Origin: Planctomycetia bacterium
GTDB taxonomy: Bacteria; Planctomycetota; Planctomycetia; Pirellulales; UBA1268
Length of the DNA: 37,469 nucleotides
Assembly (NCBI GenBank): GCA_021414115.1
Contig: JAIOPD010000002.1
Location: 1-37,469 of the forward strand
Reading direction: 5' to 3'
Part shown: positions 15,011 through 34,419 of the stretch, piece by piece
Numbering within the stretch: position 1 is the first letter of the stretch
Layout of the letters: each line of letters opens with the position of its first letter
Translations under genes and position numbers: made by a program
Notes under the pieces: generated by a model
What the model was told of the DNA's origin: nothing
The model's input: the letters and a program-made list of their open reading frames with translations, nothing else
Databases searched by the model: none

Positions 15011-15955
15011 TCACTGCGCGCGCACCGACACGCCACCGGTATCCCAGAGGCCCTCACCGACGCGAACGACGATTGGTTCGTATTGATAGCCAAGATCGAC
15101 CAATGCGGCTTTGACCGTCTGGAATTGGGCAAACGAATCTTCGGCAACGAGCGTGGAAACAACCCAGTCCTCGGGTGGAAATTGCTGAAGCATTCTGCGG
15201 AGAGACTGCTTGACTGTCGCGCCATCTGCGATGTGCCCGGCGTCTGGCTTCGCCTTCACGGAGAGGTTTCCATCGGACCGAGACGTGATCATGAAATGAT
15301 CGGGGTTTGGGCCGAGTCGGTTTCCATCCTTGTCAAAAAGGTGCCAGGCATATATCCGCCCGTACTTGATCAAGATCGCGAACTGTTTTTTCTTCTGTTC
15401 CGTGAGCTCAGGCAACTGCGCAACTTGTACGATTTTGTCCGGATCCACTGGGCGGTCAATGTCAACTGCGAGTTCCGCTAGGGCCGCCGACGCCTCTTCG
15501 GCCTGCCTGCGGCGTTTCGCCTGCACGGCAGCACGTTCCTCCGTTCGCGTAAACTCCTCTGCCATCTGCGTCGCTTGCCGCTCGAGTTCGACAATGCGGT
15601 CCTGGCTACGGACAATCTCGCCGGACATTGTCGTGTCATCGGTGAGAACCCGGGCGATTTCCTGTGCCGCGGCCGTGCTGTCGCTCGCCAGGCGAGCCAT
15701 CACGGGATCAGGAGGCGGCAGTGCATCGAGAGCAGCTTTCAGCCGGTCGATTTCGCCTGACAACTCAACGACCTGTGCTTCTGCGCGTGCCTGCTCCGTC
15801 TTCGAGACAGGCTCGTGGTCCGCGGGTGTACGGCCCGTCATCCTCAGAAGCACGGCGACAAGCATCGTGATGAACAGGATGCTCCCGAACGTGTTCGTGA
15901 TCGTGTCGAGCAGAAGTTCGAGCCCGCCCTCGACCGACTCGTGGGAGCGTGCCAT
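15011..15955 (-). CDS. ExbD/MotB-like energy-transduction subunit with coiled coil (last gene of the large operon)
   Basis: A 314-residue membrane protein, probably a stator-like partner of the ExbB-type channel encoded two genes upstream. The short cytoplasmic N-terminus leads into one membrane helix, LLLDTITNTFGSILFITMLVAVLL, whose Asp17 sits where ExbD/TolR/MotB carry their proton-binding Asp. Residues 55-160 are a long heptad-rich coiled coil (AEAQVVELSGEIDRLKAAL, VELERQATQMAEEFTRTEER). The C-terminal part, about residues 180-314, looks like an ExbD-type periplasmic domain, with a strand-helix-strand pattern in WVVSTLVAEDSFAQFQTVKA and LGYQYEPIVVRVGE. It differs from normal ExbD (about 140 residues) by the inserted coiled coil, reminiscent of ZorB-like or GldM-like architecture. 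No OmpA/peptidoglycan-binding motif is seen. It lies 26 bases after the preceding gene. Confidence 0.75.
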   Translation of the reverse strand: MARSHESVEGGLELLLDTITNTFGSILFITMLVAVLLRMTGRTPADHEPVSKTEQARAEAQVVELSGEIDRLKAALDALPPPDPVMARLASDSTAAAQEIARVLTDDTTMSGEIVRSQDRIVELERQATQMAEEFTRTEERAAVQAKRRRQAEEASAALAELAVDIDRPVDPDKIVQVAQLPELTEQKKKQFAILIKYGRIYAWHLFDKDGNRLGPNPDHFMITSRSDGNLSVKAKPDAGHIADGATVKQSLRRMLQQFPPEDWVVSTLVAEDSFAQFQTVKAALVDLGYQYEPIVVRVGEGLWDTGGVSVRAQ

Positions 15956-15981
15956 TGAGATGCGTCCTCGCCTGATCTGGC

Positions 15982-16857
15982 CTAAGGGGCCCGGTTCTTG
16001 GTTGTGGAGCCGTCGCGAACGGCCTGATCTTCACCGATAAGATCGATCCCAAATCGTATCCCCGCGTCGTTGAGCCTTTGCTCGATATCCCGTCCTAATC
16101 CTTTTGCGGCGGAGGGTCGAACAAGGAGGAGGCAGTAGTCTCCCTCCGGCTTGAGACCGGCAATCCAGCCTTCGGTGGCGGAGCCGGCATCCGTATCAGC
16201 GCCCAACCGCTGCGTGCGGTTCCCGCCAAGCAGCACGACTGTCGCGCCATCCCCGCTCAATTCCACGAGCCACGCCTTGCGGTCGGAATCCGCGGGCGGA
16301 TTGAAGACGAGCTCCGTGCCCGATCGGGGCTTTTCGGCGATCTCCCGCTTGCGATTCTCCTGCCGTTCCTGCTCCGTGCGGTTGGCAGATTCGAGGCGGT
16401 CGCACTCTTCGCAATCCTCATCCGACTGGCGTTGGAGTTTGGCGAGTCGCTCGGCGTCCGCCGCGTGAGTGGCAGCCTCTTCTTCGGCGGTGGCGAGCAA
16501 TCGCGCTACGGCATTTCGTGTCCGCTGGGTTTCCGCGAGCCGGAGTCGGGCGTCTGTGAGATTCGCTTGGGTGGCAGCCAACACATCTCGAGCCTCTTGG
16601 AGCGTATGGGGCGTCTGCTGGGCCCGACGCGCGGCGACCTCGTTTCGCAACCGTGAGGCGATGGACTCGAGCCTTGTCACCGTTGCATCGATGTGCCGCC
16701 GCGTTGCGTCGGGGCTGTTCGTAGCCTGGTGACGTTGCCGCGTGACCAGCTCGATTGTGAGGAGGATCATCACAAGGATGAGTATCGCCGTGACGGATGT
16801 GATGATGTCCTGGAAGGAGAAAAGCGAGAAGGCGGCAGCTGGCTTGCGGCGGCCCAT
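15982..16857 (-). CDS. ExbD/MotB-like subunit with coiled coil
   Basis: A 291-residue protein with the same plan as the following gene product. It has a basic N-terminus, then the membrane helix FSFQDIITSVTAILILVMIL with Asp17 as candidate proton carrier, and a coiled-coil region (about residues 45-180) including TRLESIASRLRNEVAARRAQ and LATAEEEAATHAADAERL. It ends in a globular domain (about 190-291) with an ExbD-like pattern in GDYCLLLVRPSAAKGLGRDI and EQRLNDAGIRFGIDLIGED. A CEEC pair near residue 150 is unusual. It starts three bases after the ExbB-type gene, so stoichiometric co-translation is likely. The two ExbD-like proteins are divergent in sequence, so a heteromeric pair in the channel is plausible rather than simple redundancy. 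Confidence 0.75.
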   Translation of the reverse strand: MGRRKPAAAFSLFSFQDIITSVTAILILVMILLTIELVTRQRHQATNSPDATRRHIDATVTRLESIASRLRNEVAARRAQQTPHTLQEARDVLAATQANLTDARLRLAETQRTRNAVARLLATAEEEAATHAADAERLAKLQRQSDEDCEECDRLESANRTEQERQENRKREIAEKPRSGTELVFNPPADSDRKAWLVELSGDGATVVLLGGNRTQRLGADTDAGSATEGWIAGLKPEGDYCLLLVRPSAAKGLGRDIEQRLNDAGIRFGIDLIGEDQAVRDGSTTKNRAP

Positions 16858-16860
16858 GAA

Positions 16861-17724
16861 TCACGCCTCCTCGCCGAGCGACTCCAGCCTCAATCGGCCG
16901 ACGATGTTTCGTATTCCGTATTCCATCGACTCGTCGAGGAACTCTTCCTCCGACTTCTTGGTCATCACCATGAGCAACTGGACGATCAAAGCCGCGACCA
17001 GCGCCACGAGCGTCGTATCGAAAGCAGTAGCGAGGCCGGCCGTCACCTTCCCGAGCGCTCCGGTGATCGCCGAGACATCCTCGCCCGTCCCGAGAACGGC
17101 CGTGAAACTGCCGATCGCCTGGGAGAGCCCAAGGACGGTTCCGATGAAGCCGAGCACTGGGATCGCCCAGACAAACCCCTGAATCAATGCGTAACTGGTC
17201 TCGACCTGCGACTCGTCTTGCGATGCCTGCGCCCGAAGCAGTTCCTCCACGTCTCCCACTCGGCCGAGATTTCGCAGGTTCGAAAGAGCCACTTCGACGC
17301 GGTTGAGCAGCATGAAGCTCCGGGGGTCGGCGGCGAGTTCGTGGATGCGTTTGAGGACCTGGTCGACCGTCGACGGCGAAATCACGAATCCAGCCTCGTC
17401 GGGCAAAACCTTGACATCGAGAGCCCGACGCTGCAGACCAAGCTTGGTCCGTTTGAAGACCAAAATCGCGAGCGACCAGAAAAACAAGACTACAACGGCA
17501 TGCTGCGTTGGGCCTCGCTCGAGAAAGATCTGGCCGATGGCGGTCTTTGCAAGCGGCGTCGTCGCGAGAACTGCGTAAAACGCCACCGCTAGCACGATCC
17601 CGATCAGACCCGAGAGCAGGCCGTTGACGCGGGTATAGCGACCGCCGTTGAAAAGCAGCCGTTGCTCCAAATCCTGCCGCGACCAGTTGAGTTGCGGACC
17701 GGTCCGGCCTTCTCGTCGTCGCAT
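16861..17724 (-). CDS. MotA/TolQ/ExbB family proton-channel protein
   Basis: A 287-residue inner-membrane channel subunit that should use the proton motive force together with the ExbD-like partners. Hydrophobic segments are at about residues 36-56, 74-92, 180-207 and 226-254. The last two form the conserved family core, PVLGFIGTVLGLSQAIGSF, then ITGALGKVTAGLATAFDTTLVALVAALIVQLLMV, including the small and Thr residues that line the ion path in TolQ/ExbB. A cytoplasmic helical insert (about 95-175) lies between the second and third segments as expected. It starts one base after the stop of the GYF_2/zinc-ribbon gene and ends three bases before the first ExbD-like gene. Family assignment is firm; the driven process is unknown. 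Confidence 0.9.
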   Translation of the reverse strand: MRRREGRTGPQLNWSRQDLEQRLLFNGGRYTRVNGLLSGLIGIVLAVAFYAVLATTPLAKTAIGQIFLERGPTQHAVVVLFFWSLAILVFKRTKLGLQRRALDVKVLPDEAGFVISPSTVDQVLKRIHELAADPRSFMLLNRVEVALSNLRNLGRVGDVEELLRAQASQDESQVETSYALIQGFVWAIPVLGFIGTVLGLSQAIGSFTAVLGTGEDVSAITGALGKVTAGLATAFDTTLVALVAALIVQLLMVMTKKSEEEFLDESMEYGIRNIVGRLRLESLGEEA

Positions 17725-17725
17725 G

Positions 17726-18553
17726 TCAAATCACCACGCGGAAATACGGCAGACTGAAAGCCACCACGCCAACGGCTATCAGAAGCAGGGCCCCGAGTGT
17801 CGCCCGCCCGAGAACCATACCCTTCGTGGCGAAATCGGCATCGGCGGGCGCCGCTCGCCCCAGGCTGACGGCACTGAGCGCATCATGACCGCACACCACG
17901 GCCACGACGGCAAGCAACAGCGGGCCCACGAGCGTCAAGGCGAAGGCGTGAGGAAATGACTCGTCCATGGCGTAACCAAAAACAGTAGCCCGTCTCGCCG
18001 CAAGCGCGGTGATGGCGAGAAACGCGATGATGTGCCAGACGAATGCGATGAGCCCGCAGACCAAAGCGACCGTAGCAAGCGAGGTTTCATAACCGGGCTG
18101 GACCGCCCCACACGACTTGCAGACCGCGAGGTCGGCTCCGAGTGTCTTGCTGCATGCCATGCACCAGGAGCGGCGACCACCGAACACACCTTCCACGCTC
18201 CGCGCGGCCTGCCATGTGCCATCCGGTAGTCGCCGAACCAGATCGTGCGGCTGCAAGAGACCTCTGGCGGCATACATCTGGAGCATGCCCAACTCCACGG
18301 ACCCCGGAGGCAGACCCGAAGAAGCAACTTCCCAGCCGACGGCCGTCGCAACGCGCCCTTCCGCGATACGCCCATCGGTCAACTCCGAAAACGTCCGGAC
18401 TTCGCGCCATGGCCCAGTCTGGTCTCTTGCCGTCAGGTCCACAGCGCCCACGCACGACACGGCGTACATCCGGCGCATGAGATCCCCAGTAAAGGGGCCT
18501 TGAACCCAGCCGTTCTTCTTCACATACCAGACGGGCTGCAGCGAAGTGGTCAC
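17726..18553 (-). CDS. GYF_2-domain membrane protein with zinc ribbon
   Basis: A 275-residue protein. Residues 8-60 form a GYF_2-type domain (WYVKKNGWVQGPFTGDLMRRMY), with a second, partial copy at about 88-125 (ELGMLQMYAARGLLQPHDLV, then WQAARSVEGVF). A four-Cys zinc ribbon follows, Cys131, Cys134, Cys145 and Cys148 (CMACSKTLGADLAVCKSCG). The C-terminal 120 residues contain about three membrane segments (ATVALVCGLIAFVWHIIAFL, LTLVGPLLLAVVAVVCG, LGALLLIAVGVVAFSLPYF), resembling the DUF4190-like tails of planctomycete GYF_2 proteins. GYF_2 modules are thought to bind Pro-rich or other peptide ligands. Its start overlaps the stop of the preceding gene (ATGA). In this operon it is probably a membrane adaptor. 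Confidence 0.78.
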   Translation of the reverse strand: MTTSLQPVWYVKKNGWVQGPFTGDLMRRMYAVSCVGAVDLTARDQTGPWREVRTFSELTDGRIAEGRVATAVGWEVASSGLPPGSVELGMLQMYAARGLLQPHDLVRRLPDGTWQAARSVEGVFGGRRSWCMACSKTLGADLAVCKSCGAVQPGYETSLATVALVCGLIAFVWHIIAFLAITALAARRATVFGYAMDESFPHAFALTLVGPLLLAVVAVVCGHDALSAVSLGRAAPADADFATKGMVLGRATLGALLLIAVGVVAFSLPYFRVVI

Positions 18554-19581
18554 CTGAGGTTCCTTAGGTCCCCAGAATCCCTGAACTTTGCCTGGACGGA
18601 GTCAGTCGTGAGCTGGCCCGTTTGATGGAGGTCCCAGAGATCGAGCAACTCCTTGAGCGTCGTCGAGCTCTGGCCGATGTCGTCGATCACCTTTTGAGCG
18701 TCTTTCTTGTCCTGGAGCTTCACCGCCTCGCTGAAACTTCGGTAGTCGGCTTTAAGATCCTCGAGTTTGCGGAAGTGCCGGCTGAACCGTGGCGTCGAGG
18801 AAGCCGCCTGAAGGAGATTTTTGTGGGCCTGCGTCAGCAGCATGAGATCTTTCGCCATCTCGTCGCGAGCGACGTTATGGTCGTCGTTCGGCGCATGCTC
18901 CCGATAACGCTTGATGGCGGCTGTAAAGTTGCGTCGGGCGATCTGCATGTCGGCCTCGGCGGTGGCCGTCAGCCGGACGATCCAGGCGTCGCGAGGGTCG
19001 TTCGACACGAGCCACCCAATCGCGGTGACGAGCCCGAGGGCGCTCCCGCAGATCCCGACCACAAGCCCGGTCGTGGCAAAGCCGTCTGTTTGGCGGGCCA
19101 TGGCAATGCAGCTCAGGGCGAGCCCCGTAATCGACGCCACGAGCAGGGGAAAGACCAGCGGCACGGCCCAATAGCCATCCGGGTAGCGAAGCACCCAGAC
19201 CAGCAGCGGCCCCAGCGTGAGCACGAGCCCCGTGGTGGCGGCGATGAACCCCGCTAATGCGAGGCCTCGTCCAGTCCGGGCGGGCCGCGACACCCCGCTG
19301 GCACGTGTTGAGAACTCGCCGGACGGCTGGCTGGCAATCGGGAGCGGAGCAGCCATCGCTGCCACGTGAGTCGTTGGTTCGGGAGCGACGGGAATGGGGA
19401 TCAGATCCTGAGATTCCCAGAGTTCCGGGAAGGTCGACGCCTGCGCAAACGAGGAGCCCCCGTCCACGGAAACCTGCTGAAATCGTCCAAGGGTTCCCAT
19501 GCGGATCATCTTTCGCATCTCGGCGAGCGAAACGGGCCCCAGATCCCGATCCCCCTTCTTCCACAGATAGCCCTGCGTCAT
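18550..19581 (-). CDS. GYF_2-domain membrane protein with C-terminal helical domain
   Basis: A 343-residue protein beginning with a GYF_2-type domain (YLWKKGDRDLGPVSLAEMRK, residues 5-55). A Pro/Ala-rich linker follows, then a hydrophobic stretch with about three membrane helices (residues 105-195: LALAGFIAATTGLVLTLGPL, VPLVFPLLVASITGLALSCI, GLVVGICGSALGLVTAIGWL). The C-terminal 140 residues are charged and helical (TAIKRYREHAPNDDHNVARD, LEDLKADYRSFSEAVKLQDK). It sits seven bases after the large coiled-coil gene and overlaps the next GYF_2 gene by four bases. The two GYF_2 proteins are not close copies: only this one has the helical extension and only the other has a zinc ribbon. The function is unknown; a scaffold role is inference. 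Confidence 0.75.
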   Translation of the reverse strand: MTQGYLWKKGDRDLGPVSLAEMRKMIRMGTLGRFQQVSVDGGSSFAQASTFPELWESQDLIPIPVAPEPTTHVAAMAAPLPIASQPSGEFSTRASGVSRPARTGRGLALAGFIAATTGLVLTLGPLLVWVLRYPDGYWAVPLVFPLLVASITGLALSCIAMARQTDGFATTGLVVGICGSALGLVTAIGWLVSNDPRDAWIVRLTATAEADMQIARRNFTAAIKRYREHAPNDDHNVARDEMAKDLMLLTQAHKNLLQAASSTPRFSRHFRKLEDLKADYRSFSEAVKLQDKKDAQKVIDDIGQSSTTLKELLDLWDLHQTGQLTTDSVQAKFRDSGDLRNLR

Positions 19582-19588
19582 GCCGCGA

Positions 19589-22500
19589 TCAGCCTTTCTT
19601 ATCGAGACTCACTTCGAGGAACACCGGATCGCCAGCCCGGCCATTCACATCGCTACCGGGGGGAATGCCGCCGTTGGCGTCGCACTGAACGCAGGGAACC
19701 ATCGTGGAGCCTTCACTCGCCCCGCCTGCAACAAGCACCCGCTTTCCCGCACGGATCACCGGATCGCCGCCGCTAATCGCCCAACCGCCTTCCGCCCGCT
19801 TCCGCAGCCGGCCGACGCAGCGATAGTGCGAAAGGCTGCGGAAACGCTGCTCAATGTCCCGCTCGCGGGCTTCAATGGTGCGGGCGGCCTCGCTCGCCTC
19901 GTGTGCCACCAGTTTCACAAATGCCTCGCATTTGGCTCGGTTCGCGCGGACCCATGCTCCATCGTCCTGTTTCTGGGGATCAAGCACGGCGGTGAACACC
20001 TCGTTATCCACGCCCTTGAGAATCAGCGGTTGACCGTCGGGCGCTGCTCCTGCGTTAAGGTCAATCAGCGGTTTTTTTAGCAACTCCTTCACGGAGGGGC
20101 TCGCTTCGCAAGCACGAGCGACCAGAAACCTTACGAGAATGGCGTGCAAGCACGGATCGAGGCCCGGGTGGCCTGCCGGCGGTTGCCATTCACTCGAGCA
20201 CTCGCGGATCACATCGATCGCAAGCCGGTCGATGGCAGAGGCGCCGCCTGAAAATGCTTCGGTGACGGACTTACACTTCAAAGCGATGCTCTTCTGCGGG
20301 GAGTCGGCGACCTCGTAGTCGGCAGCATCGAACCAGAGCGTCTTCGTCGGCCACTCCCTCGCCGCATCAGGCCGACCGTTCACGTACCGGATGCTCTTTT
20401 TTTGATCGGCTAGCGGTCGGTCCTGGAGCAGACAATAGTAGCGTGGATACGGCAGCACATCGCGTTTCCAGATCACACCGTCGATACGCTCCCCGTGCTG
20501 GCTCTCGAGGATTGTGACGAAAGCCCCCTTCAACTCGTCGACTTTCTCGGGCATGTTGGCGCTGGCCCGCTCGAGCGCCGGCTCCAGCCACGGCCTTGCT
20601 TCCTTGCAGCCGTGCGATCGTGCAACGTCGGGTCCCAACGAGCGAAGTTTCTCCAACAACCCCTTGGCCTGTTCCGGTGTGAGTTTCGCTGGTTGGTCGA
20701 GACTCGCTAGAAACGTTTGCCATTCGGCGATCGCCAACCATTCGGCATGATCGCGGGCGACGGCCTCGTAATCCCTCGCGACGCCGCCCGAGCCGACATC
20801 GTCTGCGATCTTTCGAATCGCATCGGCGTATTCGGCGTATTTCCCATCAATCAGCAGTCGGTCTGCCGCGCTCTCGCGGGCCTCCATGCCGGCCACGACC
20901 GCGCACCTGGCCCGCAGGCTGTTGATCGCCGTCGCCGCCTTCGACTCCGAGGACACGAGGGCAGCGATCGAGGCCGACACGACTCTGCGGCCTCCATAGC
21001 CGCTGGCCGCGGCAGGGCACGCCGCCTTGGTGGAAAGGAATCGCAGCGTGTCGAAGGAGGCGGTCACCTCGTCGAGCGTGACCCTGGCCTGTCGGGCATC
21101 ATTGGTGAGCGTCAACTGGACTGAAGCGAGATCAGCCTCGAGACGCCGGACTCGGTCCTCAAAGGTATCGTCCGCGGCCGCCGTGAACTCCTTGGCTTTC
21201 GTACGGAGTGCGGCCGCCGGTAGCTCGAGTTGCGCCCGCTCTTCGTCGGTCACGGCCGTGTGCTGCTCCCGCACGTCGTCCAACAGTCTGGCAACCCTCG
21301 CAAACTCCTCCGGCCACGGCGCGAGAGGATCGAGCCGTGGTGCCGCTTGGAGTTCGGCGACTGCCTTACGGATTGCTCCTATCTGACTGGCGAACGCTTC
21401 GCGGCCGTCGGCCTGCTTCTTCGCCGCCGAGGCGACGCGCTCGAGTGCCGCGGCCACCCGGGGATCCTCTCGCACCGCCGCCGACCCGTCCGGGACGGGA
21501 TCCTTGCCGCTGCCATCTCCTGCCTCAATCCGCTTGACGGCCTCCTCGCATGCGGCGAGGGCCGCCGCGACCTCGTCCCGATGCCGGTTCCATGAAAACA
21601 CGCCCCAGGCCGTGGCCGCGATACCGACGAAGAGGGCGACGACCGTCGAGACAGCCAGAGCTCGCCGCATCCATTCCTCACGGTGAACGCTCTCCGTGAT
21701 GTCGGCGACCCGATCGGAGAGTTCTTTGATCCGATTCGGATCGACATCCTCCGCAGGAAGGCGCGTCGCGGAATCATCGACCCTGTCCATCATCTGGATG
21801 AGTTCGTCCACCCACGCCCCCCTGGCGCGGAGTGTCGCCGGACGCTCCGCCACCCGATGCCCGACCTCAAAAATAAGCGAACGGTGTTCGTGTAGCGACG
21901 TCACGTAGTCAAGGATCGGGCTTGCCCGCATGAGCCGCGGGTCGGTGGGGTCGCAGACGCCGCGGTCGGCGAGCGTCGCATGCCATGTGGCGTGAAGGCG
22001 AGCAAGTTTCTTCCCGGCCGCGGCTCGATCAATCGCGATTTCGGCATAGGCCGCCTCCAGTTCCGGCAGCAGCCGGTCGAGCGTGGCATCAGCGCGGCGC
22101 TGCCGCGTCTCGGCCGCGAGTCTTATGACCCGATCGATGAGGTCGTCGGCAGGCTTGACCTGGCTCCATTCACCACGAAGTTCGCCGACAAACTGTTCTA
22201 CGTCGTGCTCGGCCTGCTCCAGGTCCACGGTCCGCTGCCGCATCCGATCACGAATCCTGGAAGTTTCAGCCTTGATCTCCATCAAGCGGTACGATTCGTG
22301 TTCGCGGAGCATTTCTCGCCAGACTTCCTGCGGGTCACGCTCGAAGATCTCGCGAAGCAATCCGATCCGGGCGGGCAGCGGGGCCCGCCGAAAGTTGAGC
22401 CGCCGCCATTGGTCGAGCAGTTCCTGTATGTCGTGGAGCCGGTCTTGCGCCACCACCACTTCGGCCATTTTGTCGAGATCTGGCGGCACTGGGGCGACGA

Positions 22501-22858: not shown

Positions 22859-22897
22859 CCGGATTCCCCTCACTGTAGGGGCCACCGGTGGCGGTTG

Positions 22898-25555: not shown

Positions 25556-25567
25556 GCTTATCCACCC

Positions 25568-26875: not shown

Positions 26876-26896
26876 GTTGAAGAAACGCTCCGGAAG

Positions 26897-27667
26897 TCAT
26901 TCCAAATACGAGGGCGTTGCTCGAGGTATGGGTTTGCGACTCTGGCGTTCTGCAAGATCCTGCAGAATCGTTTTGGCGCTGGCCAAGACGTGCTTGCAGG
27001 CGTCGTCAGACGTCGCGTGCGGCTCAACCGCTTCGAAGGCCTGAATGGCGTCAGCGTACGCGTTCCCCAGATCGCCGGCGGATCGATGCGAGGCGGCCCG
27101 CTTCAGGTGCCGCTCGGCGACCGCCGCCGCCGTGGCGGCGTCATAACGCGGCTTGGGCCGCGGCCGCCCTGGGAGAGCGGCTGGTGGCTGCGAAGGGTCG
27201 GTACCGATCCCGGCGGCCTCGCCCGTCTGGCTGCGCGCCACGGCCGCCCCCCCGTCCTGGTTCCCGCCGCCGGCGACGCCGCCTGCGCTGTCGCCGCTCG
27301 ATCCATCCGGCCCCGATCCCTCGCCGCCCTCGCCTGACCCCGTGCCAGCGCCCTTGGAGCCCTCGCCATCGCCTTGGCCCTGCCCGTCCGTTGAACCGTC
27401 TCCAGAGCCATTGCCGGAACCGGCGCCGTTGCCGTCGCCTGCTTTCGAGGCATTACCAACGTTGGCTCCGCCTCGCTGGGTCGGCTCGGGAACGTTGGTG
27501 CCTCGCAGTCCGGAGTCCCATTCCGGCCGCCGAGTGCAGCTGAACCCACCAAGAACGGCCACAGAAAAAAAAACGATCGCGGTCGTCAGGAGCACGGCCA
27601 ATCGCTGCCAAAGGAGAGCGTTTTTCCCACCCCGCGAGACGGCGGCGTTGGTACGGTGTGGAGCCAT
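26897..27667 (-). CDS. Membrane-anchored Gly/Ser-rich linker protein
   Basis: A 256-residue protein with one N-terminal hydrophobic segment (residues 21-41, LAVLLTTAIVFFSVAVLGGF) ending near a Cys (GFSC). This could be a lipoprotein site, though the residues before the Cys are not a canonical lipobox; otherwise it is a signal anchor. Residues 50-150 are low-complexity Gly/Ser/Asp (GAGSGNGSGDGSTDGQGQGD), an extended flexible linker likely outside the inner membrane. The C-terminal 90 residues are helical with a TPR-like repeat (AAVAERHLKRAASHRSAGDL, GNAYADAIQAFEAVEP). The overall design suggests a tethered helical module reaching across the periplasm. It begins 97 bases after the toroid-protein gene and ends 22 bases before the GTPase gene. 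I do not recognise a specific family. Confidence 0.7.
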   Translation of the reverse strand: MAPHRTNAAVSRGGKNALLWQRLAVLLTTAIVFFSVAVLGGFSCTRRPEWDSGLRGTNVPEPTQRGGANVGNASKAGDGNGAGSGNGSGDGSTDGQGQGDGEGSKGAGTGSGEGGEGSGPDGSSGDSAGGVAGGGNQDGGAAVARSQTGEAAGIGTDPSQPPAALPGRPRPKPRYDAATAAAVAERHLKRAASHRSAGDLGNAYADAIQAFEAVEPHATSDDACKHVLASAKTILQDLAERQSRKPIPRATPSYLE

Positions 27668-27763
27668 GACTCAGTTCCGAAGGGTGCAAGTTGTGCAAGC
27701 GGCCGGACCGGTTCGTTGACCCGTTGGATCAGGCAGGCAAGTTCTTCAGACCTACCGGGTTCT

Positions 27764-29077
27764 TCAGAAAGGGTCGAGGATTCCAGGGCCTGGAGCCGGT
27801 TTAGGCGGCGGATTCTGAGCGGGCGTTGGACGACGTTTCCCGGGGTCTGCAGTCGGAGCGACTGCCGGTGGCGCCGTGGCGCCATCCATGGGTCGCCCAA
27901 TGACCGGCGTGCCGCCACCAAGCCCGGGTGGGGACTCGCCGACTCCGCCGCCGCTGCCGATCGCGGCCGTGAGGTCCGCGGCAACATTGGCTCGGCTGAG
28001 GAAGAGGATGCCGAAGCTCGTGCCGACCGCCTGGGCGAACGGCCAGTTCTTTGTGCTACTGGTGCCCTGCCATTCGCCATTTGGCGATTGCCCGGCCAAC
28101 AACCGCTGGCTTCCCCACCGATACCAGTCCACACCGCCGATATCCTTCAAGTCGTAGATCACGGCAACGCGTTCCAGGGACCAGAAAAAGTAGAGGTCCG
28201 AGTTAATGCCGGCGGACCTGTCCTTGTTGGCGTTTTTCAGTTCGATCCCGAGAGCCTCCAGCGCCCGCTTCGCGATCGGGTCGTTGGCAGCCACCAGACC
28301 ACGGCGCCCCCCGTCTTCTGGGGCAGTGCGACGTCCGTTCGCGCCCTTCGGGATCGCAATACCGACGAGTCCGGCGCACGTCATCGTCGGTGTTGCACCG
28401 AACCCCGGCGAATACCCCCAACCGCCCAGGGATTGGTCGAAGGAACCGCGGAAATATTGATCGAGTCTTTGCAGCAAGACGTCGTTGCCAACTCCGTGCC
28501 GACGACTCACCCATGATGCAAGGGCGGCGAACTGGGTATTGGAGTTGTCGCCCCCATGGCCTCCGCCGCGTTGCAAAGAATACGTCCATGCGCCATTTCC
28601 GCCCTGGCCGCCAGCGAGCCGCTGTCCGAGCTGGCCCAGCAGGTCGGAGTCCCGCGGCAGCCCTAAGCGGTCGAGAAACATGATCGCCAGCGAAATGTCG
28701 TAAGTGCTCCAATCATCCGCCGCCCGCTCACGGACCGCCGTTGCGGCCGCGAGGACCGCTGGTTCGTTGGCTGGCTTCCCCCCAGCCAGGAGAGCCATGC
28801 CAGCGAGCGAAGTCTCGCCGAGTTCATGGCCCACCACGCTGTTCCAGGTCCCGTTCGGGGCCTGCGCCTGGATCAAATAGACCGACGCCCGGTCGATCGC
28901 CTGACGCACGCGATCATCTGCAGCGGCGTGTGCTGCAACCCACGCCGTGATGAGGAGCACGGTTATCCCTGCTGCGCTGATACGCAAGACACCACGGCAG
29001 TGAACACGCCGGAGCCAATGACTGCATCGATATCGGCTCAAAGCACGATGAGAAACCAAAGCACCCTTACTTCGCAA
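27764..29077 (-). CDS. Secreted alpha/alpha-toroid protein (prenyltransferase/squalene oxidase repeat)
   Basis: A 437-residue exported protein with repeats of the squalene-oxidase/prenyltransferase type. The repeat pattern AIDRASVYLIQAQAPNGTWN, the GGWGYSPG segment and AGQSPNGEWQGT mark an alpha/alpha barrel. The DxDD motif of class II terpene cyclases is not evident, so it is probably a binding or scaffold toroid as seen in many planctomycete proteins rather than a hopanoid enzyme. The signal segment is ISAAGITVLLITAWVAAHAA. The start is uncertain: TTG 29077 overlaps the previous stop by 11 bases and has GAGGA 11 bases upstream, whereas a TTG at 28987 would place the signal peptide at the very N-terminus. 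The C-terminus is a Pro/Gly-rich tail of 60 residues. A periplasmic sensing or docking role is a guess. Confidence 0.8.
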   Translation of the reverse strand: MRSKGALVSHRALSRYRCSHWLRRVHCRGVLRISAAGITVLLITAWVAAHAAADDRVRQAIDRASVYLIQAQAPNGTWNSVVGHELGETSLAGMALLAGGKPANEPAVLAAATAVRERAADDWSTYDISLAIMFLDRLGLPRDSDLLGQLGQRLAGGQGGNGAWTYSLQRGGGHGGDNSNTQFAALASWVSRRHGVGNDVLLQRLDQYFRGSFDQSLGGWGYSPGFGATPTMTCAGLVGIAIPKGANGRRTAPEDGGRRGLVAANDPIAKRALEALGIELKNANKDRSAGINSDLYFFWSLERVAVIYDLKDIGGVDWYRWGSQRLLAGQSPNGEWQGTSSTKNWPFAQAVGTSFGILFLSRANVAADLTAAIGSGGGVGESPPGLGGGTPVIGRPMDGATAPPAVAPTADPGKRRPTPAQNPPPKPAPGPGILDPF

Positions 29078-32000
29078 GGTTCACAATGTCCTCATCAACG
29101 GTGGCATTAAGCTTGAGCTTATTAAAAAAGTGGCTGACTTCGTCTTCACGGAGCGGAATCCAGCGATCGCCCTCGACTGCCTCTCCTCTAAGTTTCTTGA
29201 TTTCCTCCGCCGTGAGATCTTTAAACAACTCAGGAGATGTTATGGCCTGCACTACAAGCCAGTTGGGCACAGCTCCGTAAATGTACGTGTAATCCGCGAG
29301 AAAATACCTGCCCGCGAAATCCGCGGAACTGAGTTGCACCGCGTGGTCCTGTATGGCCTCCATGTGGCGCTCCAGGATGCGACATTCGTTGGCGGCATGC
29401 GGCCCGTACTGCCCGGCAGAAAACCATTCCCGCTGTAAATGGACGAGTTGCGGCGTCATGTAGGCACCGAGGCCGCTTCTGATGACCTTGACCCCTGGGA
29501 CCTCATCGAAAATCGCATAGCCGCCAATAATCGCAGATAACGCATTGAGTTTTTTCGTCAGTTTGCCTTGGGCCTCGCCAGCCTGCTCAGCCCTCGCCAA
29601 AAGAATATCCGCGAGTTTCATAAACGCGGCCCGCGAGTTGGACTTTTCGCCCTCGTCGAGCCAATACCACGCGAGCAGAAAACATGCCTTTTCGGCGATC
29701 GGCGACTCAAAGGCTTCCTTATCATTCAGCCCGCACCATTTGCCAATCTCTGAAGCCGACGTGTCGACCAGCATGCCCTTAAATGGCAACGTAAATCCAT
29801 CGTCGCGATCATATGTTCGCGGACAAAACTGAACTGGGTGAATCGTGTATTCCTCGCGTTTTCCGCGTGTTCGAAGCGCAAAGACCTCCCCCTTCGGCAG
29901 CAATGCTTGCCGATAACGGAGCCATGTGTCGAAATCCAAAGCCTCTGCTTCGTCGATTCGCTCCAGCGCGCGATCGAATAACCGCTCATGCTCGGGGCTG
30001 ATTCGGCTTCCATCGACAAGATCGCGCTGATTTTGCAAACGCTGCAAATAAGCATTGATCTCGCCGATCGCTTCAGTCACGCCCTTCTTCTTGGCGGGAT
30101 CACTCTCAGGATACACCCGCCATGGCGGCTCAGTGCAGTGCTTTGCGACTGCCCGTTCGGCCGTCGCCGCCGATTCGTGAAAGCTGGACAAAGCCTTATT
30201 GACGCTGTCACTTGTCCGCAGTCCGTAGCTCTCGATGATCGTTCGAACAATCTTTGCGGTCGGTTGCAGGAGATACTTCTCGTCATCGGCCACTCGCCGC
30301 CAGACAAAATAGGCGGAACTCTTGAGGCCAGCCGCGTTCAACACACCCGCCAACTCCATCTGCGCTGTGACCACCATTTGCTGCGCACGAATCACCTTCT
30401 CAACGCCGACCCCGAACGCCTGTGCCTCATCAGCGGTTACGACTCTACTAAACAGGTCGTGTCCCTGCCGTCGACGCTGCGGCAGGAACATCTGCTCCAA
30501 TACGTCGTTGTAATGCGTTACCGCCTTATGATAAAGGCGGGCCTTTGCAAAATATCTTGCCGTCTCAAGCTGAGTAGCAAGAACTGGCTCCGATTTCGCA
30601 ACCCATTCCTCTTGCTTTGAATTAAATGCCGTGTCGATCTTCCCCTTAAGATCCCCGATCTGCTCCGTCAACGAAGGACTTGAGCCCGCTGCCTTGGAAA
30701 GTTCTGCCAAAGCGTCATACAACATCGGGTATAACTGCAACTCATAGGTAGAAACCGCAAAGGACTTTACCACGCCAACATAGGCATTGTGTAGTGAAAC
30801 AAGTGTATCGGACTGTGATTTGTCTTCGTTGGTGCTCCAGGCGGGAACGGGCCGCAACAGGTTTTCATTACCGGCATTTAAGAGCGATACCGCCTCGCCA
30901 ATTGACCTATTGAAGTCCTTGAGCTTTTTGATCTTCGCGCCAATCTCATCGGAGCTGTCCGCATTGATATCCGATGGGTTTGCGAGCTCTTTTTCGGCAT
31001 CAGCGCGAATTATGCCGACAACAGGAACCGCTGGGTGGTACCGAATAAGTTTATTGAAATGTTCCTTAACTATATTTTCTTTGATTTGCTTATAGTCTTT
31101 CATTGAGTAAATCTGAGTAGTATTAATGCGCCCAACGCCGTCCTGCGCGCGAAAGTCAAACGGAGGCGAGTCGTCAGCTGTGGATGCCGCGGAATTCGTT
31201 GTGCCTGAAACAATGTCTTGGTCTTCACTGAAGCGGCGACTTGTGATCCAGTTTCCGCGTTGGTCGCGCAGATACCGAAACCCATAAACACCATACAACC
31301 GGTTCATCTCGCTTGAAAGAAAAGGCGCGCCTTGCCAACCTGCTTCTGAAAGCATCGCCTTCTGCGCCGAATCACTATCGATTCCAGTCGAGATCATTTT
31401 CGACCTAAGCCTCTGCATGAATCGGGACGGGATATGCTTGGGCTTTTCGATGCAGGTCTGGATTTCGTTGTAGGACTCCGATTCGGTATATCCGGCGTCT
31501 GAGAGAAGCTGGAAGAAAGCCGCGCCCATCCGCCCTCCCTTGAGTAGGTTTTTGGGGACCGAATGAAAGTGCAGCGGCATCGCTACGGTTGCGCCAGGGT
31601 AGTTAATGGTGCAACGCGGCGCGCCTTCGCCCTCATTCAACTCAAAAACCAACCGCTTCCCGTCCTCCAACTGAAGGTAAGGGGATGGTGTATTTTCGGC
31701 GAAGAACTTTGGCATGGTCTCGGCGTTGTCACCGTCAGAAACAATGACCAACGGGTTGAGAACCTGAGTAAACGTCCCTGACGCCGATGGCAGCTCCCAC
31801 CCGCGATCCCTCATCAGTTCAACAAGGGGATGTTTTGTAGCGTCGCGCACGCTCGCCAACGTTTGTAAGACACCGGCAACTCCCGGTGTTGTTTTTACGT
31901 CGTTTGGATCATACGCGCGAGTCGACAATAGCTTTTTTATGGCATACACATCGTTCCTCACAGGATGGTATCGAAGGCGGGCAAACTGAGAGGCGTCTCT

Positions 32001-33209
32001 TACACAGAGAACTTGCGTTTGGGCGGCAATAAGGTCCTCACATGCCTCGATTGGAAAGTCACAGACTGAATAACTATTGTCAGCGAGTTTGAACTCATGC
32101 CTGACGGGCATGGATTCAACCAGTTCTCGGAGCGGCAACTGTTCGTCCTGCTGTGGAGTCCGCCAGAGGAGATTGAGATAGCGACGCTGCCATTTGTGAT
32201 CGTCGTCGAGGTAAAGAACGGCAGCACGCAGGGCGTTGTCACGGTCTTCCACTCGGCAGAACAGGTATCGCCCGTACAGAAGAACAAACCGGTCGGACAT
32301 CCGGTCTCGACCTGCGACAACCTTACCGGGGAGAATGTAGCCGGGGCCAGAAACATCTGGCTTGAGATAAGCGCCGTAATCCAACTCGTCAAGCAAAAAC
32401 TGAAGGCTTTTGGCTTTGTCAATTTCCACGGCGGCGTGCCATGGGAGCAGCGGTTTGTCGGCGCCTTCGCTAGGTGCATCCGGCTTGGTTGGGTCTTTGG
32501 TGGAGTCGTTTTGCCTTTTATCTAGAAATACGACCGGATGAGAAATGTTCACAAGTGTGGATTGTCGTTGCTGGAACGACTTGCGATGCTCTGCACGCAG
32601 GAAGGCTTCCTTAGGATCTGGTGTGTCCAGAAAGAGCCGCAGTGGAGTCGCCATGATGCAGAATGGGTCGCGACGTTCCGCCTCAATCAGCGCTGCCTTA
32701 ATTTCGGCCAGCGTGGCGACGCAGTTGGATGACTCTGGATCGAGCGCGTCGCGATAAACGCCGCGAGCTTGCTGCGCTACTTCGAATAGCCGAACGGCAA
32801 CTTCCCCGAGCACCGGGCCATCGGCAACGCGAGCCATTGCAGCCCATGCCTCGCGAAGTCTTGCGCACGCCTCCTTGTATTTGAGCCGGTTAACGAGGCC
32901 CGGATCTAATACCTTGTCGGCCGTTGTGTTTTCTCCGTCGACATCTCTTATCGCCAAAAACCCTGCAAGCAAAGGGGTTTCCGCAGCGCTTCCGCTTGTC
33001 GCAAGGCGTTGAAGGATCTCCCATCGCTTGCGGCGGCCCCGTTCAACATCCTCGTAGTTACGAAGCTCTCGATCACGCTTCGCGGTGGCACAGAGCTCCT
33101 CAATGATTCGAAGGTCATCGCTGGTTTCGGCCCATACGATTGGATGGGCGGTCATCACAATGAACGTAATGGCCAAAATAATCAATCGACGGGGCAATGA
33201 GAAATGCAT
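29067..33209 (-). CDS. Large exported protein (1380 aa), unrecognised
   Basis: The largest gene of the operon, and unrecognised. ATG 33209 gives a clear Sec signal peptide (PRRLIILAITFIVMTAHPIV, cleavage near WAET), better than the open frame start at 33254. The mature part is mainly helical, with tetratricopeptide-like spacing in places (LETARYFAKARLYHKAVTHY, then AADDEKYLL-like segments) and a long central mixed region with Trp-, Tyr- and Pro-rich strands. I see no enzyme motif and no later membrane helix, so it should be periplasmic. Codon use is visibly more AT-rich than in the backbone genes, with many codons ending in A or T. It overlaps the next gene by 11 bases. Absence of recognisable relatives may reflect fast evolution, as expected in conflict systems. 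Confidence 0.7.
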   Translation of the reverse strand: MHFSLPRRLIILAITFIVMTAHPIVWAETSDDLRIIEELCATAKRDRELRNYEDVERGRRKRWEILQRLATSGSAAETPLLAGFLAIRDVDGENTTADKVLDPGLVNRLKYKEACARLREAWAAMARVADGPVLGEVAVRLFEVAQQARGVYRDALDPESSNCVATLAEIKAALIEAERRDPFCIMATPLRLFLDTPDPKEAFLRAEHRKSFQQRQSTLVNISHPVVFLDKRQNDSTKDPTKPDAPSEGADKPLLPWHAAVEIDKAKSLQFLLDELDYGAYLKPDVSGPGYILPGKVVAGRDRMSDRFVLLYGRYLFCRVEDRDNALRAAVLYLDDDHKWQRRYLNLLWRTPQQDEQLPLRELVESMPVRHEFKLADNSYSVCDFPIEACEDLIAAQTQVLCVRDASQFARLRYHPVRNDVYAIKKLLSTRAYDPNDVKTTPGVAGVLQTLASVRDATKHPLVELMRDRGWELPSASGTFTQVLNPLVIVSDGDNAETMPKFFAENTPSPYLQLEDGKRLVFELNEGEGAPRCTINYPGATVAMPLHFHSVPKNLLKGGRMGAAFFQLLSDAGYTESESYNEIQTCIEKPKHIPSRFMQRLRSKMISTGIDSDSAQKAMLSEAGWQGAPFLSSEMNRLYGVYGFRYLRDQRGNWITSRRFSEDQDIVSGTTNSAASTADDSPPFDFRAQDGVGRINTTQIYSMKDYKQIKENIVKEHFNKLIRYHPAVPVVGIIRADAEKELANPSDINADSSDEIGAKIKKLKDFNRSIGEAVSLLNAGNENLLRPVPAWSTNEDKSQSDTLVSLHNAYVGVVKSFAVSTYELQLYPMLYDALAELSKAAGSSPSLTEQIGDLKGKIDTAFNSKQEEWVAKSEPVLATQLETARYFAKARLYHKAVTHYNDVLEQMFLPQRRRQGHDLFSRVVTADEAQAFGVGVEKVIRAQQMVVTAQMELAGVLNAAGLKSSAYFVWRRVADDEKYLLQPTAKIVRTIIESYGLRTSDSVNKALSSFHESAATAERAVAKHCTEPPWRVYPESDPAKKKGVTEAIGEINAYLQRLQNQRDLVDGSRISPEHERLFDRALERIDEAEALDFDTWLRYRQALLPKGEVFALRTRGKREEYTIHPVQFCPRTYDRDDGFTLPFKGMLVDTSASEIGKWCGLNDKEAFESPIAEKACFLLAWYWLDEGEKSNSRAAFMKLADILLARAEQAGEAQGKLTKKLNALSAIIGGYAIFDEVPGVKVIRSGLGAYMTPQLVHLQREWFSAGQYGPHAANECRILERHMEAIQDHAVQLSSADFAGRYFLADYTYIYGAVPNWLVVQAITSPELFKDLTAEEIKKLRGEAVEGDRWIPLREDEVSHFFNKLKLNATVDEDIVNLAK

Positions 33210-33273
33210 GTGACTTACCGTGCAGTGATGGACTTGATATCTCAAAAACGACATAAAGTTGAGTGAAACGGCC

Positions 33274-34248
33274 CTAGTCGCGGCGAATGATCGGTTCTTC
33301 GCTTAGGGGTGCGATCCGGCTGGCGACTGTGCCGTCGTATGTATTGGTTTCATCGAAGCAGAGGCCCCCTGTATCATCGAGCGCATCGGGGACAACAAGC
33401 ATCCAGCGATAAACCGTCGTCCTGTACTCTCCACCCCGAGAGACGGATCTCCTTCGCCCGGTTGACGGGTCGATGACCCAGTCCGACACCACCGCCGTTG
33501 CGACTCGATGGGACTTCTCCGCCCAGATGCACCACGGCTCACCCGGCGGGATTTCCAGTGTCTGTTTTCCTTCGGAATCTGTTTTCCATTGGGCCGCCGG
33601 CGGGGTCGGGAGCGCGTTAAAAAAATGGTCGGCGAGGTTCGCCTGGAGCGAAGACAACGAGGCCTGCACGTTTGATTGTTCTTGTTTAAGCCGAGCGAGT
33701 TCTGCTTCGAGTGGCTCGATTCTCGACGCGTACGCCTGTTTGTAGGCTGCGTCCGCCCGCGTTTTGGCAGCGCGGGCCTTCGAAAGGCCTTCGAGGGGAT
33801 CACGAGTGGCATACTCCTCGCTGTCTCGTTTCGGCCGTAGTTCGTTGTAGTCGCGGGCAACTGCCTCGCGAGCCTCGCCCAGCTCCACGTGGACCTTATT
33901 CCATGCCGCACGGATACTGGAAAGTGTCCGATCGAAAGCCTTTATCTTCTGATCATGCTCTTCTTGAGCGACGCGAAGTGCCTTCCGCACCGCGCTGATT
34001 GGACTTCCGTTTAAGGCGAGTGAAGGAAACGCGAGTGGTCTCTGATCCTCGCCAGCCACGACCACGCGAGCGGGCACGGTTCGCTTGCCAAACATGCTGC
34101 CCGGCCCGGATTCACCTCCTTGGTCGGCAGTACACCCCAGCAGCAACGCTGCAACCGCGCTCGTGAAAAGGCCGCGGTGAGTGCCGGCGGTAAGACGGTG
34201 CAGGAAGCATTCCACCACGGTTAGGTGCGAAAAAGAAATCAAGGGCAT
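33274..34248 (-). CDS. Predicted lipoprotein with coiled coil (first gene of the operon)
   Basis: A 324-residue predicted lipoprotein: the hydrophobic segment TSAVAALLLGC with a canonical LLGC lipobox near residue 39, preceded by a basic region. The open frame also begins at TTG 34251; internal GTG codons at about 34215-34218 would give a shorter leader. After the lipid site comes a Gly/Ser-rich linker, then residues 85-205 form a coiled coil (HDQKIKAFDRTLSSIRAAWN and YASRIEPLEAELARLKQEQS). The C-terminal 100 residues are beta-rich (YRTTVYRWMLVVPDALDDTG). It is not a family I recognise. It is the first gene of the minus-strand array, 64 bases ahead of the next, and its 5' end lies only 100 bases from the IS3 element, so the operon promoter must lie in that narrow gap or come from the insertion sequence. 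Confidence 0.72.
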   Translation of the reverse strand: MPLISFSHLTVVECFLHRLTAGTHRGLFTSAVAALLLGCTADQGGESGPGSMFGKRTVPARVVVAGEDQRPLAFPSLALNGSPISAVRKALRVAQEEHDQKIKAFDRTLSSIRAAWNKVHVELGEAREAVARDYNELRPKRDSEEYATRDPLEGLSKARAAKTRADAAYKQAYASRIEPLEAELARLKQEQSNVQASLSSLQANLADHFFNALPTPPAAQWKTDSEGKQTLEIPPGEPWCIWAEKSHRVATAVVSDWVIDPSTGRRRSVSRGGEYRTTVYRWMLVVPDALDDTGGLCFDETNTYDGTVASRIAPLSEEPIIRRD

Positions 34249-34419
34249 CAACTCCCGAGACCTCGTTAAGGGGGGGCTCTACATCAGATTAGCGGACCTT
34301 CTGAAGTGAGTATAGGTACCCTGACAAGGGGTATCGACCCTTAAGGCTGAGGCGGACCCTGGATTTCGGGCGCCCTGATAAGGTGGAGCCTCCGGGCTTG
34401 GAGGCCCCCTATCAGGAGT

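Follow-up and report, generated by a model that had tools for sequence, protein, structure and literature searches.

Does a run of planctomycete genes that sets a GTPase switch beside an ion-channel module encode a single machine and, if so, what might that machine do? The question is raised by contig JAIOPD010000002.1 of Planctomycetia bacterium (assembly GCA_021414115.1; order Pirellulales). The stretch analysed, here called the window, is this one whole contig (G000:C5, 37469 bases), from a genome of 4.35 Mb in 144 contigs. Between positions 15011 and 34251, the window carries 12 minus-strand open reading frames (ORFs), which are numbered 1 to 12 along the direction of transcription (34251 down to 15011). 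We find that genes 4 to 12 belong to a unit that recurs at many other loci. The recurrence of a DO-GTPase/GAP1 switch together with an ExbB motor suggests a new envelope-spanning machine, the purpose of which is unproven.

A conserved unit within the gene run

The 12-gene run is judged to be real. As an initial annotation of the window had described, its members overlap or are separated by short gaps (−11 to 96 nt). From 15011 upwards, the intergenic gaps are 26, 3, 1, −4, 7, 12, 12, 21, 96, −11, and 19 nt, the widest of which separates gene 4 from gene 3. The genes downstream of this gap are the following:

Gene 4, 26897..27667, minus strand: lipoprotein-like protein with a low-complexity linker and a conserved C-terminal domain of ~80 residues (domain found upstream of GTPase genes elsewhere).
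Gene 5, 25568..26875, minus strand: predicted zinc-ribbon DO-GTPase2-type GTPase (Pfam DO-GTPase2 in the family alignment; invariant motifs).
Gene 6, 22898..25555, minus strand: predicted GAP1-N2 and GAP1-M protein with a membrane segment at residues 331-349 (Pfam over cut-off; hydropathy).
Gene 7, 19589..22885, minus strand: mostly helical protein with one membrane segment and without a Pfam family (hydropathy; structure model).
Gene 8, 18550..19581, minus strand: GYF_2 membrane protein of the conserved unit (Pfam GYF_2 1.6e-5; three hydrophobic segments).
Gene 9, 17726..18553, minus strand: protein with two GYF_2 stretches and four hydrophobic segments (Pfam GYF_2 4e-8, above cut-off; hydropathy).
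Gene 10, 16861..17724, minus strand: MotA/TolQ/ExbB-type channel subunit of 287 residues with four hydrophobic segments (Pfam MotA_ExbB 4.3e-9, above cut-off).
Gene 11, 15982..16857, minus strand: putative ExbD/TolR-like B-subunit (position after gene 10; membrane Asp; TolR-like predicted fold).
Gene 12, 15011..15955, minus strand: putative ExbD/TolR-like B-subunit paralogue with one membrane helix bearing Asp17, a coiled coil, and a C-terminal domain (alignment; match to gene 11).

To describe the unit at other loci, we collected two sets of stretches. Homologues of the GTPase occur in 66/296 genomes of the order, where short or partial matches were not fetched. The first set of 61 loci combines five window-type stretches, out of 22 fetched around GAP1-N2 matches, with 56 stretches around GTPase matches. 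The second set comprises the best 80 of 370 GTPase relatives in another genome collection, and several of its stretches end at contig ends. Matches with a strong composition bias (>40% of the score) were dropped. In the second set, the GTPase is present at all 80 loci, GAP1 at 73, gene 7 at 59, GYF genes at 49, ExbB at 23, gene 11 at 17, and gene 12 at 12. Merging both sets gave 122 distinct GTPase loci, 81 of which extend at least 8.5 kb downstream. Anywhere within these 81 stretches, GAP1 is found at 79 loci, gene 7 at 75, GYF genes at 66, ExbB at 40, gene 11 at 32, and gene 12 at 27.

The usual order is GTPase, GAP1, gene 7, GYF, ExbB, gene 11, and gene 12, with the gene-4 domain upstream of the GTPase at some loci; the channel genes lie ahead of the GTPase at four (L108, L119, L122, and L127). 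A recurring unit is thereby well supported: an optional gene-4 domain, the GTPase, GAP1, a helical membrane protein, a GYF protein, ExbB, and two ExbD-like proteins. Two named organisms, Rhodopirellula solitaria CA85 (L152) and Candidatus Laterigemmans baculatus JC640 (L156), carry the GTPase, GAP1, gene 7, GYF, ExbB, and both ExbD-like genes. Thus, the central proposal of the initial annotation, a GAP1/DO-GTPase pair combined with an ExbB-type channel and many membrane-spanning parts, describes a conserved combination; hydropathy places hydrophobic segments in gene 4 and in genes 6-12.

The predicted GTPase switch

Gene 5 is predicted to encode a zinc-ribbon DO-GTPase2-type protein, and its GTPase motifs are intact. 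On its own, the window protein matches Pfam DO-GTPase2 at 6.4e-4 and 19.9 bits, below the cut-off of 27. Among 21 aligned members (window included), 20 match this family at E ≤ 0.1, with a best value of 9.3e-9. Invariant in all 21 are the P-loop G/K, the Walker-B D..GE, the K.D, and four zinc-ribbon Cys residues arranged as two CxxC pairs; these residues were assigned to GTPase motifs by eye.

The GTPase is encoded just upstream of gene 6, the product of which is a true GAP1-N2/GAP1-M protein: both domains score above their Pfam cut-offs (5.7e-11 and 5.4e-6, respectively). Past the membrane segment, gene 6 continues with a long charged stretch and then a C-terminal region. Profile searches, which had been proposed as a check on the zinc-ribbon GTPase and the GAP1-like protein, therefore agree with both original assignments.

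The gene-7 protein of the window matches no Pfam family at E ≤ 0.1 and, among the matches listed, no Pfam family is common to more than two of 36 gene-7 members. Its predicted structure is helical throughout (mean pLDDT 68.8), and fold comparison returned generic helical matches only. Gene 4, originally called a lipoprotein, does have a hydrophobic N-terminus with a Cys, but its lipobox is non-canonical by eye. Its C-terminal domain also occurs in ORFs that precede GTPase genes: 24 such ORFs were counted, excluding one extra weak match, and 17 are distinct once stretches fetched twice are merged by eye.

The predicted ExbB motor

The ExbB/TolQ channel of the initial annotation is confirmed in gene 10 by its MotA_ExbB match. 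An alignment of 18 sequences shows an invariant Thr in both C-terminal hydrophobic segments. Equivalent Thr residues matter in ExbB/TolQ. The gene-10 profile yields a TolQ match at only E 0.56.

Two GYF_2 membrane proteins had also been recognized from the outset, and profile searches agree: gene 9 scores above the Pfam cut-off, and gene 8, at 25.0 bits, falls just below the 25.8 required. We considered gene 9 as a conserved family of its own and rejected this, as its profile matched nothing at the 61 or 80 other loci. Gene 9 is the second GYF protein of the unit.

Genes 11 and 12 each encode a single N-terminal membrane helix with a conserved Asp. In gene 11, F13, F15, Q16, and D17 are invariant in 20/20 aligned rows, with Asp17 at the start of the helix. 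In gene 12, 19/20 rows have D17, and the one row that departs (L123) does not extend to the N-terminal part. A gene-11 model built from 15 sequences (mean pLDDT 81.9) has a membrane helix followed by a long coiled coil, and its C-terminal domain contains strands at 194-201, 204-209, 215-218, 240-246, and 268-273. Structural comparison of this model with VIA-align ranks the periplasmic domain of Escherichia coli TolR first (5by4; Z 8.6, rmsd 2.9, 85 aligned); ExbD entries score Z 7.0-7.4 (8pek, Z 7.4; 8p9r, Z 7.4 with rmsd 2.1). The coiled coil of gene 12 was read from its sequence. The two proteins are related to each other, with a profile-profile probability of 98.8 over their whole lengths, to which the coils may contribute, and 85.2 for the C-terminal parts alone.

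Relationships to known ExbD families are fainter. Neither window protein matches Pfam ExbD at E ≤ 1. Compared with an ExbD profile made from 35 frames of relatives chosen by motif, the C-terminal parts give weak profile-profile matches (gene 11: E 0.002, probability 13.7; gene 12: E 0.036, probability 1.4), and the membrane parts align out of register. Protein Data Bank (PDB) sequence matches of both proteins are for the most part to coiled coils. A study of 205 genomes found that ExbD and TolR usually fall below detection, and it named B-subunits by their position beside the A gene (PMC12505986, in the part consulted). The two ExbD-like subunits of the initial annotation are supported by position, by the conserved membrane Asp, and, for gene 11, by a TolR-like predicted fold; formal membership among the ExbD/TolR B-subunits is not established.

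Switch and channel recur together

Gene 11 is nearly confined to genomes that carry the GTPase. Taking E < 1e-30 as a strong match, gene 11 occurs in 40/296 genomes of the order (own counted), and 38 of these 40 also have the GTPase (Fisher 1.6e-27). The two genes are at most 15 kb apart in 24 genomes, widely separated on one contig in three, and on different contigs in 11. In the two genomes where no GTPase was found, the gene-11 contigs are only 5.1 and 3.2 kb long. Weaker matches extend to 260/296 genomes at E ≤ 0.001, most of them frames of 500-900 residues, and were set aside; an E-value break from 6.7e-31 to 2.5e-24 lies below the 40 strong genomes. In three genomes, G081, G239, and G293, gene 11 lies on the GTPase contig tens of kilobases to megabases away, and in G293 it sits beside ExbB, gene 12, and a gene-7-like ORF (L235).

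A phylum-wide sample of 392 genomes gave the same picture (gene 11 at E ≤ 1e-30, GTPase at E ≤ 1e-20). The GTPase was found in 24 genomes and gene 11 in 12, every one of which also has the GTPase (Fisher 1.2e-16). Removing three matching genomes shared with the order sample, with shared non-matching ones left in, changes this to 1.8e-14. By listed coordinates, 11/12 genomes have both genes on the same contig, no more than ~10 kb apart.

In a quickly built GTPase tree with 89 rows, the loci that bear ExbB are dispersed and require 19 changes, at least 10 of them forced by starred branches. Shuffled labels require 28.6 changes on average, and 0/500 shuffles were as low as 19. Pairwise distances of GTPase and ExbB correlate across 40 loci and the window (r 0.51; 0/2000 permutations as high), as do those of GTPase and GAP1 (r 0.70). 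The dispersal on the tree fits ExbB as an old component that was probably lost or moved many times; the tree gives no direction for gain versus loss.

Comparison with known systems

By its core, the locus is a GAP1-N2 system and, by its second module, an ExbBD/TolQR-like motor. GAP1-N2 systems have been predicted to be conflict systems, with predicted membrane proximity and with planctomycete versions in which a GYF pair is fused to a membrane region (PMC7159879, in the part consulted). Like those GTPase-centric systems, our locus has GAP1-N2 with GAP1-M, a zinc-ribbon DO-GTPase just upstream, and a membrane segment in GAP1. Unlike them, it has ExbB and an ExbD-like pair, and the words MotA, ExbB, and proton have no occurrence in the main text of PMC7159879. 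It also differs in having the gene-7 protein without a Pfam family and the gene-4 domain. As for their FNIII-repeat component, the Pfam matches listed for the 12 proteins at E ≤ 1 include no fn3, although Pfam may miss this component because its repeats evolve rapidly (PMC7159879, same part).

The second module resembles ExbB-ExbD and TolQ-TolR motors in its MotA_ExbB channel subunit and in B-subunit genes directly downstream, each with a single membrane helix and Asp. The periplasmic domain of gene 11 is also TolR-like in predicted structure. In contrast to those motors, the locus has a pair of dissimilar paralogues as B-subunits, both with a long coiled coil. Its channel subunit has four hydrophobic segments, its operon includes a GTPase switch, and Pfam ExbD is not matched.

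ZorC and ZorD are among the effectors of Zorya, a further system that needs to be compared. ZorE is also a Zorya effector, and in ZorA-ZorB this system has an ion-motor pair of MotAB/ExbBD type (PMC11890865, in the part consulted). Our locus likewise links such a pair to a conflict system, which here is only predicted. Gene 10 lacks the long cytoplasmic tail of ZorA, as its last hydrophobic segment (237-255) lies close to the end of its 287 residues, and PADLOC ZorA profiles match only its channel part (best 2.3e-5). Gene 11 matches PADLOC ZorB1 over residues 13-128 of 291 (5.9e-4). Unlike ZorB, which has an OmpA-like wall-binding domain, 40 members of the gene-11 and gene-12 families include no OmpA match among the complete list of six Pfam families that they hit (E ≤ 5e-4, by sequence only). 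A PADLOC scan of genes 3-12 matched no Zorya effector, only partial ZorA and ZorB; a GTPase-GAP1 switch stands in their place. Judged from these comparisons, the locus is not Zorya, because its channel has no long tail and the OmpA-like domain and effectors are unmatched.

We found no description of the GTPase/GAP1 and ExbB/ExbD combination in openly licensed literature. Within the literature searched, the conserved ExbB/TolQ-type channel with two ExbD/TolR-like subunits is the new part.

Neighbouring genes, genomic setting, and variant loci

Upstream of the widest gap lie three genes and an insertion sequence:

Gene 1, 33274..34251, minus strand: coiled-coil-like protein, a neighbour (not found at other loci).
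Gene 2, 29067..33254, minus strand: large exported protein of low G+C, a neighbour (relatives in 3/296 genomes including its own).
Gene 3, 27764..29077, minus strand: exported toroid-like protein, a neighbour (weak Pfam toroid match, 0.0028, below cut-off).
ISL3-type insertion sequence, 34697..36272, no strand assigned: 33-nt inverted ends; DDE_Tnp_ISL3 1.7e-75; immediately upstream of the 12 genes.

Genes 1-3 fall outside the conserved unit. All three are absent from the 61 and the 80 other loci (0/61 and 0/80), and the gene-3 family is near-universal, in 144/146 order genomes with listed frames mostly of ~800 residues. We therefore rejected the view that all 12 genes form one conserved unit, and the original expectation that they travel together fails for these three. 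Gene 2 was rightly described as large and exported, but has 1395 codons from its first start rather than 1380 residues; its G+C is 53.5% vs. 67-69% in four flanking genes, and it matches no Pfam family. In the two other genomes of 296 that carry its relatives, the other genes of the run are not in the stretches read. The exported toroid reported for gene 3 has weak Pfam support, as given above.

Third-position G+C is 0.59-0.77 in all 12 genes vs. 0.86-0.92 in the four flanking genes. Scans for promoters and terminators gave no excess over shuffled sequence. The ISL3-type element looks complete, and a transposase region of rve/HTH_21 type (about 36.4-37.1 kb) adjoins it; a second copy of the element, 92% identical, is on contig C31 of the same genome. 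GAP1-N2 is present in 4/22 same-genus genomes (own counted), and the closest GTPase (57% over 267 columns) is from a different genus in the same family. Three same-genus GTPases sit in the same loosely supported tree group as gene 5. An acquired, patchy accessory locus is consistent with the G+C shift, the ISL3 neighbour, the patchy GAP1-N2, and the nearest GTPase from another genus; vertical descent with losses may be an alternative history.

Other genes accompany the unit at particular loci. Between ExbB and gene 11, one locus encodes a von Willebrand A domain protein (L101:10072-11121; VWA_3 1e-7), and its BLAST group, a mixed one, also has members near ExbB/ExbD genes at L080, L100, L123, and L124. 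A ~700-residue family is encoded upstream of the GTPase (L112:5505-7715, L081:12022-14142, L100:11504-13600, and L082:5598-7712). By eye, its members begin with a J-domain-like region, continue with a membrane segment, and later resemble the C-terminal part of GAP1; the L112 member has only a chance-level Pfam match. Where ExbB is missing, at L089, L090, L092, and L099, a ~900-residue protein is found instead. It is followed at the first three of these loci by a second protein, which at L089 matches LPG_synthase_TM (3.2e-12). The ~900-residue protein and the protein after it are an alternative module after the same core. Loci L128, L130, and L131 are divergent: they have a longer GTPase, GAP1, a protein whose L131 member weakly matches a DnaJ zinc domain, and a small protein whose L131 member weakly matches YbjN (E 0.07). 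Gene 7 and ExbB were not found there. An AAA ATPase, ClpB-like as judged from the L130 member, is present as well at L128 and L130.

Proposed mechanism and alternative explanations

We consider it an evenly balanced proposition that the conserved unit, genes 4-12, encodes a cell-envelope machine driven by ions and switched by a GTPase. For this machine, we infer that the parts form a complex, how they are placed in the membrane, that ions flow, which way control runs, and the biological role, and with them control of the GTPase over the channel. The zinc-ribbon DO-GTPase would be cytoplasmic and act with GAP1 as a switch, while GAP1 would be anchored in the inner membrane and reach into the periplasm. 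The helical membrane-spanning protein of gene 7 and the GYF membrane proteins may serve as a scaffold or adaptor. ExbB would form the channel ring, and genes 11 and 12 would form its axle, each supplying an Asp in the membrane and a long coiled coil in the periplasm, with the gene-11 part ending in the TolR-like domain. Changes in the envelope, sensed through the periplasmic parts, could alter the GTP state of the switch, which would start or stop ion flow through the ring. The moving axle might then exert a pull or push on a partner in the periplasm or outer membrane, for instance the gene-4 protein. The role would be that of an accessory envelope-guarding system, against phage or other envelope damage, rather than nutrient uptake. 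A stronger form of this proposal is more tentative, and we hold it at somewhat less than an even chance: that an ExbB ring, driven by protons and fitted with an axle of two paralogues, is gated by a GTPase-GAP1 switch of DO-GTPase type, that this would be an undescribed class and an old part of this planctomycete GAP1-N2 branch, and that it would act by mechanical work across the periplasm, not by release of an enzyme effector.

Several observations weigh against the proposed machine. ExbB is not in the fetched stretch at 41/81 loci, and the core can therefore exist without it or has it elsewhere. Where a genome has both the GTPase and gene 11, the latter is far off or on another contig in 14/38. 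For 17 of the first 22 GAP1-N2 stretches, BLAST at E ≤ 1e-5 returned none of the 12 genes, and these stretches were dropped before counting; the other GAP1-N2 systems of the order are thus of another sort. The Fisher and Mantel tests ignore shared ancestry. Pfam ExbD matches 0/40 members of the gene-11 and gene-12 families at E ≤ 5e-4. Unrelated folds follow close behind the TolR match of gene 11 in VIA-align (Z 7-8.1), and Foldseek found no PDB match for the gene-11 model at E ≤ 0.001; ribosomal S11-like and other folds came out on top, with no ExbD or TolR among the best 50. The TolR assignment is for these reasons supported but unproven. Lastly, the surroundings of the unit show no enrichment of defence families. 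We compared 110/277 non-core ORFs of at least 200 residues from system stretches, chosen at random within a residue limit, with 99/239 ORFs from 20 control stretches (rows with X or of at least 1500 residues dropped). The commonest PADLOC families listed match 3/110 neighbour vs. 2/99 control ORFs, in a comparison of low power with greedy ORF picking that covers the best 25 of 73 and the best 25 of 87 families.

Four other explanations bear on these data. The locus could be a dedicated, Zorya-like anti-phage or conflict system, in which injection or wall damage opens the motor, the GTPase sets the threshold, and ion flow or an effector stops infection. The initial annotation had pointed to such systems, and a role of this kind is in keeping with the prediction that GAP1-N2/DO-GTPase systems are conflict systems (PMC7159879, as above), with the patchy occurrence of GAP1-N2 in the genus and of the GTPase in the order, with the low third-position G+C of all 12 genes beside an ISL3 element, and with the other modules that adjoin the same core at some loci without ExbB. 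However, neither Pfam nor PADLOC recognised an effector enzyme in genes 4-12, PADLOC matches are no commoner among neighbours than among controls, the Zorya features tested are absent, and our literature searches turned up no phage test. We regard a dedicated defence role as a real possibility that falls short of probable. The same standing, plausible yet short of probable, is given to an envelope-maintenance or stress machine like Tol-Pal or the PSP response, in which GTP would time the motor during, for example, budding or membrane stress. The TolR-like domain of gene 11 and the hydrophobic segments in genes 4 and 6-12 speak for this explanation, but a patchy distribution (66/296 order genomes) is odd for housekeeping, and ordinary ExbD genes are already present in 13/13 genomes searched.

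The remaining two explanations concern where the machine begins and ends. ExbB and the two ExbD-like proteins might be an ordinary transport motor that shares the operon or neighbourhood and works apart from the GTPase system. That ExbB is absent from half of the long stretches (41/81), and lies upstream or on the other strand at some loci, and that the pair is not close together in 14/38 genomes with both gene 11 and the GTPase, would suit an independent motor. Even when not nearby, however, the gene-11 type is nearly confined to GTPase genomes (38/40 and 12/12), and by Pfam the gene-11/12 family is distinct from ordinary ExbD; we find an ordinary motor improbable. Alternatively, as the initial annotation proposed, all 12 genes, the toroid and large exported proteins among them, could be one machine reaching outside the cell. 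Their common strand, short gaps, and similar third-position G+C shift would be expected of one machine, but genes 1-3 are at none of the other loci, gene-2 relatives occur elsewhere without the unit nearby, and the largest gap (96 nt) falls between gene 4 and gene 3. We hold this to be very improbable. The GTPase-switched machine of genes 4-12 is thus the best reading. The neighbour test gave no sign of defence islands, and for its purpose we rate defence and envelope stress about the same.

Implications for planctomycete biology

In the literature searched, DO-GTPase/GAP1 systems are known only as predictions. A conserved motor would give this branch of them a testable output, in the form of ion flow and periplasmic movement. 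Our analysis also names further parts of these systems, namely gene 7, a core protein without a Pfam family, and the small domain of gene 4. As Rhodopirellula solitaria CA85 and Candidatus Laterigemmans baculatus JC640 carry the unit, experiments are possible. If the proposal is true, a GTP-controlled member would be added to the ExbBD, TolQR, MotAB, and ZorAB motors.

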